NCBI GenBank assembly: GCA_937919205.1
Contig: CALFOZ010000207.1
Location: forward strand, 1 to 37,127
Reading direction: 5' to 3'
DNA: 37,127 nucleotides
Source: an uncultured Planctomycetia bacterium
GTDB lineage: Bacteria > Planctomycetota > Phycisphaerae > Phycisphaerales > SM1A02
Shown: positions 7,012 to 13,970 of the stretch, piece by piece
Layout of the letters: every line of letters starts with the position of its first letter
Position numbering within the stretch: the first letter of the stretch is position 1
Program-made: the position numbers and the translations under genes
Notes under the pieces: generated by a model
What the model was told of the DNA's origin: nothing
The model's database searches: none
The model's input: the letters and a program-made list of their open reading frames with translations, nothing else

Positions 7012-8357
7012 CAGTGTCGTCGTCGAGAATTCACTTTGCCACCCAAACGCTTCATGGGTTGACCCGTTGGCACAACGCCGCCTGGGAATTTAGTTGGATC
7101 GGCAACCGTTGGCGTTGGCGCCGCGGCTTGAAAACGATTCTTGGTGGCGTCGTTGGTTTCTCGCCGCTTCACTTCTTGATCGCGGCGCGCCTGCACTTCA
7201 ACTGGTGGCGGACCTGGATCAAAGTCTGGATATTCCTTGCGGACAATTTCCACATTGGTCAACATTTCAATATTTGTAAGCAATTCGCCCTGATCTGGGC
7301 ATACAAAGCTCCAGGCAATTCCGCGGCGACCGGCGCGCGCGGTGCGGCCAATGCGATGCACATACACCTCGGGGTCCTCGGGAATGTCGTAGTTAATCAC
7401 GTGGCTAATGTCGTCCACATCAAGTCCGCGCGCCGCAAGATCGCTGGCCACAAGCACGCTCAGATGCCCGCCGCGCAAACGTTCCATGACTTTGTCGCGC
7501 GCCTTCTGATACATGTCGCCGTGAATGGCGAAGGCGTCGATGTTTTTCTTTTGCAAGTATTCGGTGACGTCGTCCACGGTGCGCTTGGTGCGGCAGAACA
7601 CCACGGTGAGTTCGGCGGTTTCATGCGTGAGCAAATGATGTAGCAGTCGTCGCTTGCACCAATAGTCAACTGGCAAGTAACTCTGATCAACTTGGCTCAC
7701 GGTTAAACTTTTCTCGGAGCTGACAATTTTTTCCGCGTCGCGCATGTAACTGCGCGCCAACTTTTCAATCTCTGGACTAATGGTGGCCGACACGAACACA
7801 GTTTGCGGATGTTGCTTCATACTGCCCAAAATGCGGCGAATATCCTCGCGGAAACCAATGTCAAGCATGCGGTCCACTTCATCAAGCACCGCGACCTTGA
7901 CTTGGTGGTACGGAAGAATGCCGCGTTGATTCATGTCCATCACGCGCCCAGGCGTGCCCACAATAATCGCGGGGCCAGCCTTCAGTTGAGTGGTCTGCGT
8001 GTTGATACTGCTACCGCCGTACACCGCCACCACTTTGTGGCCGCTGTACTTGGCGAACTCCATGAATTCCTTGGCCACCTGAATGGCAAGCTCGCGGGTT
8101 GGCACAAGCACCAAGCCGCTGAAGGCATCGCCCTTGTCAAGGCGCGCCAGCATGGGCAACGCGAACGCCGCGGTCTTGCCGGTGCCCGTCTTGGCTTGGC
8201 CTAGGCAATCTTTTCCGGACAGCGCCACTGGAAGAAGCGAGGCTTGAATGCGGGTTGGATACTCAAAGCCCTTTTCATTCACGGCTTTAAGAAGTGTTTC
8301 TGGAAGTCCAAGGTCGGAGAATTTTTTACTGGTGTCGAAAGTTTCTGTTGAGTTCAT
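7011..8357 (-). CDS. DEAD-box RNA helicase with DEVD motif II
   Basis: ATP-dependent RNA helicase, probably in RNA folding, decay or ribosome assembly. In order: Q-motif region (FSDLGLPETLLKAV, PTRIQ), motif I AKTGTGKT (55-62), PTRELA (87-92), TPGRVMD, motif II DEVD (159-162), motif III within VSATI (189-193), SDLAARGLD and motif VI HRIGRTARAG (334-343), with a short basic tail (VNSRRRH). Family members normally have DEAD at motif II. I checked the codons (GAT GAA GTG GAC) and the third residue is Val, as in some eukaryotic relatives. AAAGGA 4 bases upstream marks the ATG at 8357. It is first gene of the minus-strand block and divergent from alr. Confidence 0.93.
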   Translation of the reverse strand: MNSTETFDTSKKFSDLGLPETLLKAVNEKGFEYPTRIQASLLPVALSGKDCLGQAKTGTGKTAAFALPMLARLDKGDAFSGLVLVPTRELAIQVAKEFMEFAKYSGHKVVAVYGGSSINTQTTQLKAGPAIIVGTPGRVMDMNQRGILPYHQVKVAVLDEVDRMLDIGFREDIRRILGSMKQHPQTVFVSATISPEIEKLARSYMRDAEKIVSSEKSLTVSQVDQSYLPVDYWCKRRLLHHLLTHETAELTVVFCRTKRTVDDVTEYLQKKNIDAFAIHGDMYQKARDKVMERLRGGHLSVLVASDLAARGLDVDDISHVINYDIPEDPEVYVHRIGRTARAGRRGIAWSFVCPDQGELLTNIEMLTNVEIVRKEYPDFDPGPPPVEVQARRDQEVKRRETNDATKNRFQAAAPTPTVADPTKFPGGVVPTGQPMKRLGGKVNSRRRH

Positions 8358-8415
8358 GAAATCCTTTGGGAATCTAATGGTAGTTCCCTTTCAAAGTCGA
8401 TACAACGGACACTCT

Positions 8416-9684
8416 ATGAGCCCCCGAAGCGAAGTAGTCGTTGACCTGGCCGCCGTTGATCATAATATTTCTGTCATTCGTGCGGCGCTGGACCCATCGG
8501 TGCGCCTTGGTTTGGTGTTGAAATCAGACGCTTACGGTTTGGGCGCGGCGCGATTGGCGCGGCGCGTGGCGGGACGCGCGGATTTTTTGGTGGTCTATGG
8601 AATTGAAGAGGCGGAGGTGGTTGGTGTTGCCGATCCAAGCACGCCAGTGATCGCGCTCATGCCAGTGCGCGAGATTGATCGCGGCGGGATCGCTCACAGC
8701 ATGTGGCTCAAGGGTCAGTTGCATTTGTCCGCGCATGATGTGGAGCAAGTGGAATCACTGTCCAAGTGCGCCGCGGACTTTGGCGTGGTGTTACCACTGC
8801 ATTTGGAAATAGACACTGGACTTGGCCGCGGTGGTTGTTTGCCAACGGATGCGACGAAGATTGCCGCGCGAATTCGCTCGGATAAAAATCTTCGCTTGGC
8901 CGGAGTGTTCACGCACTTCGCCAACGCCGGTGGTAGCGAGACCGCCACGGATCAACAACGCAAAATGTTTGAGGCGTGGTGCAAGAGCGCGTCGCTACCC
9001 GCGGATTGCATTGTGCATTCCGCCAGCACCTTCGCCGCCATTCGCGATCCGCGATTTCACCACCACATGATTCGCGTTGGATTGGCGTGGACTGGTTTGG
9101 CCTTTGAAGGAACGCGCGATGGACACTTCATGGAGTTCGCAAAAAACTTGCGCCCCGTGTTCAGTTGGCGCAGTTCATTTGTGCAAGTGCGAACGGTTCC
9201 AGCGGGCACGGCGGTGGGCTATGGCAGTCGCTGGAAATGTGAAAAAACCAGCAGAATTGGCTTGGTTCCAGTGGGATACGGCGACGGCTATCCGTTGCTT
9301 CCAATGAACCCCGTGACGCGCCGGCCACTGGGCGTGGAGCGGCGCATGGTGCGCGTGGAAGTTGTTGAACATGGTCAAACAACGTGGCTCAACGCGCCGG
9401 TTGTTGGCGCCATCAGCATGGATCAAATCGCGGTTGACTTAAGCGAGTTGCCCGACGCGCTTGCAACAAATTGGAATCACGCGGCGGTTGAATTGATCAG
9501 CTCTGATTGCAACGCGCCCAATCACGCGGCGCGCGTGGCCAGCATGACTGGTCATCACGCGTATGAGTTGTTGTGCCGAATTCCGGCGCGCGTGCCACGC
9601 AAATTTGTGGAGCCGGTGGTCAGAGAACTTCCTAGCCTAGACTCGTCGCAGGTGTCGACGAATGCAATTTCACAAGCATCCTAA
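8416..9684 (+). CDS. alr: Alanine racemase (PLP enzyme)
   Basis: Interconverts L- and D-alanine using pyridoxal phosphate and supplies D-Ala for peptidoglycan. From the ATG at 8416 it has 422 residues. It shows the PLP lysine K36 in VLKSDAYG (usual form VVKANAYG), DTGLGRGG (133-140), FTHFANA, SAST, RVGLAW, Y269 in VGYGS (position of the second catalytic base), PVGYGDGYP and GAISMDQIAVDL. The reading frame is open to 8248 inside the helicase, but MSPRSEVVVDL is the proper start. It begins 58 bases from the divergent helicase and is 35 bases before the FAD oxidoreductase, heading a four-gene plus-strand operon. Confidence 0.93.
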   Translation: MSPRSEVVVDLAAVDHNISVIRAALDPSVRLGLVLKSDAYGLGAARLARRVAGRADFLVVYGIEEAEVVGVADPSTPVIALMPVREIDRGGIAHSMWLKGQLHLSAHDVEQVESLSKCAADFGVVLPLHLEIDTGLGRGGCLPTDATKIAARIRSDKNLRLAGVFTHFANAGGSETATDQQRKMFEAWCKSASLPADCIVHSASTFAAIRDPRFHHHMIRVGLAWTGLAFEGTRDGHFMEFAKNLRPVFSWRSSFVQVRTVPAGTAVGYGSRWKCEKTSRIGLVPVGYGDGYPLLPMNPVTRRPLGVERRMVRVEVVEHGQTTWLNAPVVGAISMDQIAVDLSELPDALATNWNHAAVELISSDCNAPNHAARVASMTGHHAYELLCRIPARVPRKFVEPVVRELPSLDSSQVSTNAISQAS

Positions 9685-9719: not shown

Positions 9720-10928
9720 GTGGTGGCGCGCATGGATAACGCGACGCGTTGTGACGCGCCCCATGGTGGCGATACGCCAACCGTCGCGCTGGAGCAGACA
9801 AGCGCGTCTGCGCTTTCCGTGCGCGCCAATGAATGCGTTGACGTGCTTGTGGTGGGAGGCGGTCCCGCTGGAAGTTCATGCGCCATCGCGTTGGCGCGTG
9901 AAGGCGCAAAAGTAATGTTGGTGGACGCGCAAGCGCGCGGGCGCGACAAATGTTGTGGACATTGCTTGTCGGGCGCGGCGTGGAATATTGTGGGTGAGTT
10001 GGGCGTGCGCCATGTGGTTGAATCGGCGGCCACGGGCGCCACGCAGTACGTGGCGTGGCGCAGTGGAGCGCAGGAATTTGCAATGAATTTGCCTGTCGTT
10101 GGAGCTATTGTTCCGCGCGCAACGCTGGATAAAAAATTATTGGATGAAGCCGAGCGCGTGGGCGTGCGTGTGGCGCAACCAGCCACGGCCACATGGTTGG
10201 AGCCAGGAAAAGTTGCGCTTCGCATGCGCGGCGATGAATGTGTGGTGGATGCGAAGTTGGTGATTGCCGCGGATGGTCTTGGTAGCGGCATTGCGCGCGC
10301 GCGTGGGTGGAATCCAAAAAGTCCCGGGCGTAAATATGGATTCGCCGGCTCGTGGCGCGCGCCGCTGGCGCTAGGTCATTGGTGTGGTGAGCGCATTGAA
10401 ATGCGCGTGGTGCGTGGCGGATACTTGGGGGTGGTGGCCGAGTCGCACGAATACATTCATGTCGCGGGTTTGATCGATCGAAATTCCAAAGTGAGTCGCC
10501 CTGATGATTTGCTCAATGAAGTCGCGCGCGATTGGCCGTTGCTTACTGCGGCGTTGCAAGAGGGCAAGCCCGCGCGTTGGAACGCCGCGGGTCCGTTGCC
10601 ATGGAAGCCCACGCGTATCGCAGATGAATCGACCGCGTTAGTGGGCGACGCGGCTGGATATGCCGAACCATTTTCCGGCGAGGGCATGCGCTGGGCATTT
10701 GAGAGCGCGCTTGGATTGTCGCGCGCGTGGCGAGAGCATGGCGGTTGGAGCGCTGTGGCGGCGCAAACCTACGCCAAGTGGCATGGCGATCACATTGCGC
10801 GAGTTCAACAAAAAACACTGCGAACGGCTTGGTTTTTGGCGCAACCCGCGCGCGCCTCACTCATGTGTCAAGCGGCACGATCATTTCCTAGAGTCGCTTC
10901 GTGGCTTGCTTGTAGCATGGGTAAATGA
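9720..10928 (+). CDS. FAD-dependent oxidoreductase, geranylgeranyl-reductase-like
   Basis: Soluble flavoprotein of 402 residues with a Rossmann FAD motif VVGGGPAGSSCA (44-55), an unusual Cys-rich stretch CCGHCLSG (78-84), the second FAD motif VGDAAGY (307-313) and PFSGEGMRWA (316-325). This pattern is typical of the geranylgeranyl reductase/FixC-like group, which reduce or hydroxylate lipid-like substrates. The start is GTG 9720 or ATG 9732; residues before about 38 look like an unstructured extension. Its stop overlaps the polyketide synthase start (ATGA at 10925), so the two are translationally coupled. By inference it modifies the polyketide product. Confidence 0.85.
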   Translation: MVARMDNATRCDAPHGGDTPTVALEQTSASALSVRANECVDVLVVGGGPAGSSCAIALAREGAKVMLVDAQARGRDKCCGHCLSGAAWNIVGELGVRHVVESAATGATQYVAWRSGAQEFAMNLPVVGAIVPRATLDKKLLDEAERVGVRVAQPATATWLEPGKVALRMRGDECVVDAKLVIAADGLGSGIARARGWNPKSPGRKYGFAGSWRAPLALGHWCGERIEMRVVRGGYLGVVAESHEYIHVAGLIDRNSKVSRPDDLLNEVARDWPLLTAALQEGKPARWNAAGPLPWKPTRIADESTALVGDAAGYAEPFSGEGMRWAFESALGLSRAWREHGGWSAVAAQTYAKWHGDHIARVQQKTLRTAWFLAQPARASLMCQAARSFPRVASWLACSMGK

Positions 10929-12118
10929 GCGTGCGAATTGAATCAATGGGTTTTGCGACGCCTTTTCTTGAGCGCACCCAACAAGACATTGGGCGCGAGC
11001 AAGCGCAATTGTGGAATTTAAGCGCGTCCTCACAAGAACGATGGCAACGCATGATTGACCACTGCGGCATTGAGCGACGCGCCGCGGTCATGCCGCTGAA
11101 AGAAATTGTTTCGCTGACCACGTCCCAGCGCATGAAATGTTTTTCCAAACACGCTCCCGCATTGGCTGTCCGCGCCATTGAGCAGGCCTTAGCGCGGGGC
11201 AATCGCGCGGCGCAAGACATCACCGACTTGATTGTTGTCACTTGCACTGGATTTGAATCTCCAGGACCGCTACACGACATGTGCGTGCGTGCGGGACTTT
11301 CTGCAAGCGTGCGAACTTCTCAAATTGGATTCATGGGTTGCTTTGGTGGAATTTGCGGACTTGACGCCGCCGCCGGCGCCGCCTTGCGGCATGAGGGCGC
11401 GGTGGTGCTGTTGGTGTGCGTGGAATTGTGCTCTCTGCATTTACGCAATGATCGCGACGCGCAAAATATGGTGGCCAGTTTGTTGTTTGCCGACGGCGCC
11501 GCGGCGCTGATTGTTTCAAACAACTCATTTCACCCGGCACATTCAGCAAAAAACGCGCTGGAGAGAGATGGCGGTATTGCGCTGGATCATGCGCAAAAAA
11601 GCAACGGTGCTTTGACGCAACCACACACGCCGTTGATCACCGTTGGCCCACGCCAAGCGCGGCGCATTCCCGAAACCGCCCACGCCATGAGTTGGCAGAT
11701 CACCGACGCTGGATTTGCAATGACGTTGGATCGAAGTGTTCCCGCGCATATTGAGCAGACGGCACCGATTGCGCTGGGTGATTTGCGCCAGTGCGCCATT
11801 CATCCTGGTGGCTCCGCGATATTGGATGCGATGGAGCGCGGCGCAAACGCACGAGCATGCGGCGGTCTTGCGCCTGAAAGTTTGAGCGCCGCGCGTGGAG
11901 TTCTGCGCGATCACGGCAACATGAGCAGTGGTAGCGTGTTTTTTGTGCTTGATCGCTTGTTGCAAAGCGGAGTGACCGGCGACATGGCGGTGATCGCATT
12001 TGGACCAGGCTTGACGGTGGATCAAATTCATCTTGCGGCAACGCCTGCCCTCGCAAATCATGCTCAATCCCCGCAACGCGTGGCAAACCGATGGAACACG
12101 CCCGTGGTTGCGCAATAG
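10925..12118 (+). CDS. Type III polyketide synthase (chalcone/stilbene synthase family)
   Basis: Homodimeric ketosynthase that condenses an acyl-CoA starter with malonyl-CoA units and cyclises the product (alkylresorcinols, pyrones or naphthols in bacteria). The 397-residue protein keeps the Cys-His-Asn triad: C139 in FMGCFGG, H293 in AIHPGG and N332 in HGNMSSGSV. MVASLLFADGAAALIV is the usual thiolase-fold strand region. It is coupled to the FAD oxidoreductase (ATGA overlap) and followed after 9 bases by the multi-HTH gene. No methyltransferase, the common third partner of such clusters, lies nearby. The chain length and product cannot be read from the sequence. Confidence 0.93.
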   Translation: MSVRIESMGFATPFLERTQQDIGREQAQLWNLSASSQERWQRMIDHCGIERRAAVMPLKEIVSLTTSQRMKCFSKHAPALAVRAIEQALARGNRAAQDITDLIVVTCTGFESPGPLHDMCVRAGLSASVRTSQIGFMGCFGGICGLDAAAGAALRHEGAVVLLVCVELCSLHLRNDRDAQNMVASLLFADGAAALIVSNNSFHPAHSAKNALERDGGIALDHAQKSNGALTQPHTPLITVGPRQARRIPETAHAMSWQITDAGFAMTLDRSVPAHIEQTAPIALGDLRQCAIHPGGSAILDAMERGANARACGGLAPESLSAARGVLRDHGNMSSGSVFFVLDRLLQSGVTGDMAVIAFGPGLTVDQIHLAATPALANHAQSPQRVANRWNTPVVAQ

Positions 12119-12127
12119 GGCTAGCCG

Positions 12128-13783
12128 TTGGCCAGGCGACCACGATTTCAGACAAGCGCGGCCGCGAATGTGTTATCCCAAGTTGAGTACGCCAAGCCCG
12201 ATGTGTTGCGGCGCATGGCGATGAACGTTGAACGGTTGGCGCGCTCGCTTCACGCCGACCAATTGGTGAGTGAATCTTGGCTCATGGAAAAAGTGACAGG
12301 CGTTCGCGCCCGCAACGCCGACACAACGCCATCATTGGTGGGCTCCGCGGTGATCGATGATCTTGCCGCGCTTGCGATTCGTTTGACGGATCGCGCGCCC
12401 ATTGACTCTGCGCGCGCCGACGGCGGCGCATTCACGCTGGAGCAAGCCGCGCAAAAACTTGGAGTGGGGGTGCGCAGTATTCAGCGTTGGCGGCGCCTGG
12501 GTTTGATCAGCATGCGATTTCAATTTGACCGCGCGCGCTTGGTCGGTTGCTCCGGCGCGGCTTTGGCATGGTTTGAAACTCACCACCCTGAAATGGTGTC
12601 CAAGCTCAAGCGGCCCGCCGCCACTCAACACGCGCGCCAACATCTGCGGGCGCAAGCGCGGCTGGCGGCGGCCGTGGGTGGAACATTGAACTCGGTTGCG
12701 AACAAATTGGCGCGCGAGGAAAAAATATCGCCCCAGATTGCCCGGCGCATTTTGGAGCAACTTGAGCAAAGCGGAGCCATTTCCAAGCTGAAACGCCGCG
12801 TTTCATTGCCGGACGCCAAGGTCGCTTTGGCATGGCGAAGTTGGATGCGCGGCGTGGATCTGAACACGATCGCGCGCAGGTTAAGTCAAACCCGCGCGGC
12901 CACGTTGCGTTGCATTGCCAAGCAGAGGCGGCGAAATATTGCGGCGAGTCACGTGTTGGTCGCGCCACTTTCCACATTTGATCGCGCCGACGCCGCGGAG
13001 ACTTTGTTGGCGCCCCAGGAAGTTCGCCAAGATTTGGCGCACGGTGTGTGGCCAACGCATCCGCGTGAATTTCTGGCGGAGTTCGCGCCACTTGTGCCGG
13101 CGCGTAAAAACATGCCCGCCACGGATCGCGTGCAACTTGTCGCGCTTCGATTTTTGCTGTGGCACGCCAAGCGTCTGGCACAAGTTGTCAACGCACAAAG
13201 CGAGTGGGTTGATCTTGACCAATGCGAAACCGCGTTGCGTTGGTCAGCGCGAATTCGCTTGGCGCTTATTCAACGCGCGGTCTCCGAGGCGCTCGGCCGT
13301 CTTCAAGCCATCGCGCGGGCGCCTCTGCATTCACTTTCTCTTGCGGCACAATGTCAAGCTATTGAAATTGCGTTGGATTCTTGCGCGGCGGTTTTGGATC
13401 AAGTGATGGAGGCACAGCCAAGTGATCGCGCCATTCGGCTGGGTGCCTTGGCCGCGATTCACGTGGAGCAACAGGCGCAAATTGGCTGGAATCCACGCGC
13501 CCGCGCGTCGGCTGGGCAGGGCGCTGAATTGCCCGACACGTTGCAATTACGTTGCGTGCCATGGTTGCGCTTCACGCCTTTGCGCGATGATCTTCAGCGC
13601 GTTGTGCCAGGCGAGTCCTCCTGCCCAATGGGACGTGAATTACTTGCGCTTCGATATGGCTGGCAAGGGCGCGCGCCGCACACAATGAAACAAGCCGCTC
13701 TGGCGTTGGGGATTCATCCGCGTCAAGGCGCAATTCTGGCCGCCAAGACATTGCGCGCGCTCACCCGCGTGGGCGCCAAGTGA
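12128..13783 (+). CDS. Multi-HTH DNA-binding protein with C-terminal sigma-70 region-4-like domain
   Basis: I do not recognise this 551-residue protein as a named family. What can be seen: a MerR/excisionase-like helix-turn-helix (about 101-126, FTLEQAAQKLGVGVRSIQRW and following); a second possible winged HTH (about 185-225, with ISPQIARRILEQLEQSGAI); a third HTH-like stretch (about 235-265, VDLNTIARRLSQTRAATL); a long helical middle (about 320-460); and a C-terminal segment (about 508-547, LLALRYGWQGR, TMKQAALALGIHP, AKTLRALTR) shaped like sigma-70 region 4. It may be a very divergent sigma factor or a specific activator. It is basic and Arg-rich in the N-terminal half. The start at TTG 12128 is 9 bases after the synthase; ATG 12215 is an alternative. 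Operon position suggests it regulates the polyketide genes, but that is inference. Confidence 0.6.
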   Translation: MARRPRFQTSAAANVLSQVEYAKPDVLRRMAMNVERLARSLHADQLVSESWLMEKVTGVRARNADTTPSLVGSAVIDDLAALAIRLTDRAPIDSARADGGAFTLEQAAQKLGVGVRSIQRWRRLGLISMRFQFDRARLVGCSGAALAWFETHHPEMVSKLKRPAATQHARQHLRAQARLAAAVGGTLNSVANKLAREEKISPQIARRILEQLEQSGAISKLKRRVSLPDAKVALAWRSWMRGVDLNTIARRLSQTRAATLRCIAKQRRRNIAASHVLVAPLSTFDRADAAETLLAPQEVRQDLAHGVWPTHPREFLAEFAPLVPARKNMPATDRVQLVALRFLLWHAKRLAQVVNAQSEWVDLDQCETALRWSARIRLALIQRAVSEALGRLQAIARAPLHSLSLAAQCQAIEIALDSCAAVLDQVMEAQPSDRAIRLGALAAIHVEQQAQIGWNPRARASAGQGAELPDTLQLRCVPWLRFTPLRDDLQRVVPGESSCPMGRELLALRYGWQGRAPHTMKQAALALGIHPRQGAILAAKTLRALTRVGAK

Positions 13784-13860: not shown

Positions 13861-13970
13861 CGCAACTACTTGGCGAACATGCTTGGCGCAAATACTTGGC
13901 GCAAATACTTGGCGCAAATACTTGGCGCAAATACTTGGCGAAAATACTTGCCGAAAATACTTGCCGCAAC
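13861..13970. repeat. 13-bp tandem repeat, 8 full copies plus a partial ninth
   Basis: Consensus CGCAAATACTTGG. Units 3-6 (13887-13938) are identical; units 1, 2, 7 and 8 carry one to four changes. A partial unit closes the array at 13965-13970. It lies in the gap between the convergent HTH gene and rpsI (13784-14028), where no gene is visible. The four perfect copies suggest recent slippage or a length-variable locus. There are no spacers, so it is not CRISPR. A small inverted repeat ACCGC-ATGAAA-GCGGT at 13988-14003 lies just after it, towards rpsI. Confidence 0.95.

Follow-up and report, generated by a model that had tools for sequence, protein, structure and literature searches.

The window, by which we mean the whole stretch of 37,127 nucleotides analysed here, corresponds to contig C207 in a draft assembly that totals 2.49 Mb over 241 contigs. 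Four genes follow one another on the plus strand in the same orientation: alr, an FAD oxidoreductase gene, a type III polyketide synthase (T3PKS) gene, and a gene for a 551-aa multi-HTH protein. Downstream of the HTH gene, rpsI and rplM lie convergently on the minus strand.

The alanine racemase gene alr (8416..9684) reaches 207.8 bits against TIGR00492 (cut-off 168) and matches both the N- and the C-terminal Pfam Ala_racemase families over their cut-offs; its start is our own choice of codon, the longest ORF beginning at 8248. The product of the adjacent gene (9720..10928, GTG start) is a geranylgeranyl-reductase/UbiH-like FAD oxidoreductase that matches PF01494 (FAD_binding_3) over cut-off and scores 125.4 bits against TIGR02032 (geranylgeranyl reductase family), under the curated cut-off of 158.8. 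Its dN/dS is 0.12–0.19 over the profile-matched region in six genus pairs. The T3PKS gene (10925..12118) is followed by the HTH gene (12128..13783), which we read from a TTG codon matching the ‘MPR..RF’ start of its relatives. The preliminary description of this DNA had given a 35-base gap after the end of alr at 9684, an ATGA overlap between the FAD and T3PKS ORFs, and a 9-base gap before the HTH gene, all of which are reproduced by our ORF calls. The alr-FAD-T3PKS layout is not due to chance, because this order is also found in other genera of the family.

A scan for promoter-like sites returned five, compared with a shuffle mean of 2.1, and a scan for terminator-like sites returned ten, compared with a shuffle mean of 11.9. 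Neither scan placed a site on the plus strand between the T3PKS and HTH genes, and the 9-base gap suggests that the two are now co-transcribed. Further upstream, the interval 8358-8415 between alr and a divergent DEAD-box helicase gene is identical in the window’s genome (G000) and in G002, G007, G011, and G013, despite an alr dS of 0.27–0.35 between G000 and the other four. This interval, which contains GGGAA-N11-TTCCC, may serve as a bidirectional promoter or operator under strong constraint. At the other end of the locus, downstream of the HTH gene, positions 13861-13969 hold a 13-bp tandem array (CGCAAATACTTGG, 8.4 copies). The array was rejected as a binding-site array, none being visible by eye in 14 other intergenic stretches of the genus (G015 left out).

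A T3PKS group without a methyltransferase partner

The T3PKS matches PF00195 with 69.9 bits and PF02797 with 61.8 bits (Chal_sti_synt N and C, cut-off 27 each), and the PF00195 match is the only one in the window’s genome. The intact Cys-His-Asn triad noted earlier holds up across 16 sequences, in which Cys139 (codon 11339..11341), His293 (11801-11803), and Asn332 (11918-11920, all plus strand) are invariant; from knowledge of the family we take these three residues to be catalytic. In a list of 61 loci, the closest named relatives of the enzyme belong to uncultured Phycisphaerales and Planctomycetia, such as ‘Phycisphaerales bacterium isolate Baikal-deep-G174’, and Mucilaginibacter, Frankia, and others follow lower down.

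Two sorts of T3PKS occur in the order. Type A, to which the window’s enzyme belongs, is found mostly at the alr locus, and neither the window locus nor the other type A loci examined matched the methyltransferase profile. In contrast, type B stood in a methyltransferase-FAD-T3PKS operon in all ten loci fetched. In the T3PKS tree, type A forms a group of its own (SH-aLRT 99), with all 19 rows from methyltransferase operons across that branch; these trees were made by a quick method from part of the genomes, and the remaining assignments to type A or B are our own sorting by score. Among 101 genomes, namely the window’s own and 100 relatives as in all counts below that refer to 101, type A is present in 25, type B in 37, neither in 39, and both in none. 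By chance, 9.2 genomes with both would be expected (hypergeometric, shared ancestry ignored). This mutual exclusion suggests that the two types serve the same need.

The combination of T3PKS and lipid-type FAD enzyme had been likened to systems that make alkylresorcinol- or quinone-like lipids, and published planctomycetal alkylresorcinol operons do offer a close parallel. In Milke 2024 (PMC10896814), 58 of 96 planctomycetal T3PKS genes are described in a methyltransferase - oxidoreductase - T3PKS layout, and alkylresorcinols are demonstrated for enzymes from several species. As in that layout, the oxidoreductase of the window lies directly upstream of the T3PKS. The window locus differs from it in having no methyltransferase, in the position of the pair between alr and either mqnA or the HTH gene, and in the separate grouping of the type A enzyme from T3PKS of methyltransferase operons, in a tree built without the enzymes of Milke et al. 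The FAD-T3PKS pair is thus a methyltransferase-less variation on a known planctomycetal operon. Its product is likely an alkylresorcinol-like lipid: the T3PKS would extend a fatty-acyl starter with malonyl-CoA to an alkylresorcinol- or pyrone-type lipid, which the flavoenzyme would then modify with no methyltransferase step. A T3PKS group that lacks this partner and excludes the methyltransferase-operon type points to a putative phenolic lipid in uncultured Planctomycetota.

Two observations on the T3PKS list stand apart from this argument. T3PKS-FAD-methyltransferase operons akin to planctomycetal type B occur in Mucilaginibacter, Arcticibacter, and relatives (L219-L222, L224-L227, L230, L234-L239, L246, L247, and L249). 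Moreover, a record titled Chitinophaga pinensis (L197) carries a type A T3PKS near-identical to those of the planctomycete assemblies L198, L199, and L248, and is probably a mislabelled or mixed assembly.

Sigma-70 descent and motif loss of the HTH protein

On its own, the HTH protein matches no Pfam family over cut-off and no sigma family of Pfam. Its ancestry becomes visible in profile A1, built from 49 homologs, with which chains of RpoS and SigA align at a best E of 9.5e-13, region 2 and then region 4 in the correct order. Within this match the region 2 stretch is weak by itself (17.7 bits, i-Evalue 0.012), and stretch 477-544 matches sigma region 4 with an i-Evalue of 1.5e-06. Likewise, 34 of the 49 profile members match Sigma70_r4 at E <=0.05 (best 1.2e-17), and Sigma70_r2 is absent among the 25 families listed for them. 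A search of 199 genomes across the phylum, in which at most seven candidates were scored per genome, found matches in 34, short or partial ones included. They include full-length homologs from outside the order, and full-length proteins in which an FSTY-type region 2 is combined with region 4. Matches to both Sigma70_r2 and Sigma70_r4 over cut-off were obtained for all three long homologs examined (L146, L150, and L113), of which one belongs to family f5 and the other two to lineages outside the order. These intact Planctomycetota homologs resemble the window’s protein over the full length, N-terminal half included, and differ from it in these two over-threshold matches. The HTH protein therefore descends from a Planctomycetota sigma-70 family with N-terminal HTH domains. 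It is a degenerate member of that family, for which no description was found in the literature searched, a search with subscription journals mostly outside its scope.

Three parts of the protein can be outlined in the window. A MerR-like N-terminal HTH (12431..12517, plus strand; HTH_17, alignment-row residues 103-131) is under cut-off in the window copy, and a search against PHROGs gave only a weak excisionase-type match of 19.6 bits. A sigma region 1.2/2-like helical domain (13055..13498, plus strand) keeps its fold in the AlphaFold2 model of the C-terminal half but has lost its motifs. A diverged region 4-like HTH follows at 13625..13765 (plus strand). With SigA and RpoS the protein thus shares the order of regions 2 and 4 (by profile) and the region 1.2/2-like fold; in contrast to them, it contains HTH in its N-terminal half, has no region 3 visible by eye, and has lost the core-binding and -10 motifs. 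The window’s genome also encodes a short sigma factor on another contig (G000:C149, L185 8829-9908, minus strand), which matches the HTH-family profile, has intact regions 2 and 4, and is without the N-terminal HTH half.

In sigma factors, region 2.2 binds the core enzyme, regions 2.3-2.4 contact the -10 element, and region 4.2 contacts the -35 element. Compared with the intact reference L150, the window’s protein has one of 18 positions in common in region 2.2, one of 20 in region 2.3-2.4, and eight of 30 in region 4.2. Motif states were mapped on a 73-row tree for which only the N-terminal part of the protein was used, and 21 of its rows keep FSTY: 19 of 20 outside the order and both rows of f5, as against none of 35 in f1 (the window’s family), none of 11 in f2-f4, and none of five in f6. 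The 52 rows without FSTY are what we call degenerate, one of them (G222) being a mild case with FASF. In the best tree the state changes three times, at f1-f4, at f6, and at G222. Strongly supported branches force two changes, one of which can be G222, so that a single loss common to f1-f4 and f6 is compatible with them. Conservation along the protein is inverted between intact rows and f1: the 16 intact rows preserve region 2 most strongly, with a mean pairwise identity of 69%, and 37% in the N-terminal domain; in 25 f1 rows from outside the window’s genus, region 2 is the worst kept part (26%), and the N-terminal domain stands at 42%.

AlphaFold2 models of the protein are confident, with mean pLDDT values of 93.1 and 93.7. 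The C-terminal-half model aligns with E. coli sigma-70 entries (Z 8.9, rmsd 3.5, 132 residues), in an alignment that covers half-model residues 8-161 and not region 4 and with a Z that, according to the tool’s own note on values of 8-9, lies within the chance range for helical proteins. All 50 rows among the matches listed for this half are RNA polymerase initiation or holoenzyme chains, which we take as sigma chains. Foldseek returned a weak best match for the same half (E 0.017) and none at E <0.05 for the whole model, for which VIA-align lists sigma entries at Z values of at most 7.8. In the window’s family and several neighbouring ones, the core-binding and -10 motifs have been lost, with fold and purifying selection kept.

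Two other accounts of this pattern deserve attention. An alternative sigma factor that still works despite strong divergence would explain the sigma-like fold of the confident model and the purifying selection on its gene, but it is improbable in view of the two single common positions in regions 2.2 and 2.3-2.4, of the rank of regions 2.2-2.4 as the least conserved part of the protein in the window’s family, and of region 4, which is absent from all five f6 rows. Even more improbable is a decaying sigma pseudogene, to which the lost motifs might point: frames of at least 500 aa are open in families f1 to f6, the predicted fold is confident, and dN/dS is 0.13-0.23 in six genus pairs (simple Nei-Gojobori script, profile-matched region only; dS >1 for the pair G000-G013). 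Of the earlier suggestion of a possibly sigma-type regulator, descent from sigma-70 thus stands on the profile match and the intact homologs, but with its sigma motifs lost the protein is probably no working sigma factor. Since the motifs are gone and the fold, the HTH half, and purifying selection are retained, we infer that it is most likely a DNA-binding transcription regulator. Region 4 is partly kept, which leaves room for contact with RNA polymerase.

Neighbourhood of the HTH gene and the menaquinone genes

The preliminary description regarded the HTH protein as dedicated to the T3PKS. Its distribution argues otherwise. A single-sequence search found the HTH gene in at least 89 of 101 genomes, compared with 25 of 101 for the type A T3PKS; 89 is a lower bound, as G074 was missed there but has the gene according to the profile-based phylum search, and in G058 the gene is broken by a contig end (L212). 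Its direct annotated upstream neighbour was recorded at 59 loci, which comprise the window and loci that we chose and fetched from HTH-positive genomes and are hence not a random draw (L119 and L120, fetched for their T3PKS, hold no HTH gene). The neighbour is mqnA, a gene of the futalosine pathway, at 42 loci, T3PKS at eight, and alr at two; at one further locus an FAD gene lies about 1 kb away, and six loci have no annotated neighbour, three of them at contig ends. The usual order in f1 is alr - (FAD - T3PKS) - mqnA - HTH - rpsI/rplM, where only some loci contain the bracketed pair. Among loci that were retrieved from the order’s other families, mqnA-HTH occurs without alr, and in G024 the HTH gene is distant from mqnA. 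Homologs from outside the order gave no match to mqnA within flanks of at most 1.5 kb. The alr gene keeps its place at the locus whether the T3PKS is there or not; the proposed link to a cell-wall enzyme lacks support, and alr is a positional neighbour.

The T3PKS is directly upstream of the HTH gene in nine genomes of the window’s genus, namely at eight of the 59 loci and on a separate contig of G005 (C40, L193). These adjacencies and the tight spacing of the genes are what a dedicated sigma-type cluster regulator with alr as functional partner would lead one to expect. Still, we consider such a regulator unlikely, given the far wider occurrence of the HTH gene and the restriction of every direct adjacency to one genus and to genomes without mqn genes. 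Moreover, scattering of the genes in relatives, named beforehand as evidence against a functional unit, is found in part: the HTH gene is on a different contig from the T3PKS in G045, G082, and G097. In the window’s sub-clade, the HTH protein may have been co-opted for the T3PKS.

The adjacency itself can be traced to the menaquinone genes. MqnA/MqnD (PF02621) has no match in 21 of the 101 genomes, the 21st of which (G065) was counted because the match list does not contain it. The window’s genome and eight more of the 16 members of its genus are among them. The nine are the same genomes in which the T3PKS stands next to the HTH gene; other members of the genus have futalosine genes. G014, from the same genus, has T3PKS, mqnA, and HTH consecutively. 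Hence, the T3PKS adjoins the HTH gene in the window because the sub-clade lost mqnA.

We consider it most probable, at roughly three chances in four, that the stretch consists of two independent modules joined by descent, the FAD-T3PKS pair and a sigma-70-derived gene. The latter would have lost the region 2 motifs for binding core RNA polymerase and reading the -10 element, kept its fold, HTH half, and selection, and come to touch the T3PKS once mqnA, its usual neighbour, was lost from the sub-clade. Its product would act as a DNA-binding regulator and no longer as a sigma factor. More tentatively, and as a possibility that we do not favour at present, the Phycisphaerales may have turned a full-length sigma-70 factor into a standing DNA-binding regulator, which was kept at the alr/lipid locus even after mqnA was lost there and may tune genes for membrane lipids or quinones. 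This conversion would have happened once or, more likely, twice, with the sigma fold kept and promoter opening lost, and such a regulator may act by sitting on promoters or on the flap of RNA polymerase.

To our knowledge, sigma factors that abandoned initiation and persisted in another role have rarely been seen. In the present case, one gene exists in both intact and degenerate versions, which within the order often share the mqnA context, so that the change can be placed and tested. The locus also illustrates that, once a single gene is lost, a long-standing neighbour may resemble a dedicated pathway regulator.

The missing MqnA/MqnD in G000 raised the idea of a substitute membrane quinone, which the FAD-T3PKS pair would make in the sub-clade without futalosine menaquinone synthesis. 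In keeping with it, T3PKS-HTH adjacency coincides with the absence of mqn genes within the genus, and NuoH of complex I, which 27 of the 30 genomes examined for it contain, is kept in eight of these nine (not found in G003). The idea was dropped on finding that G000, unlike the mqnA loci, has no detected mqnA and instead a classical menF-D-H-B-A-C-E operon (G000:C160, L180 995-8826), and we now give it next to no weight. In this operon, menD, menB, menA, and menC are over their equivalog cut-offs and menF over that of the isochorismate synthase subfamily, with menH and menE under theirs. All seven genes also occur in G002 and G009, and G005 has the operon without menF, at a contig end. Equally at odds with a substitute quinone, G014 has a type A T3PKS together with mqn genes. 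The UbiA search, used only to locate the men operon, returned several copies in 30 of 30 genomes.

Across the wider set, menD exceeds its cut-off in 18 of the 21 genomes without mqn genes, compared with none of the 12 tested that have them; G011, G013, and G047, all without mqn genes, are those in which it was not found. Within the sub-clade that lost mqnA, seven of nine members have menD, and a further nine genera of the family, which lack mqn genes, likewise have menD over cut-off.
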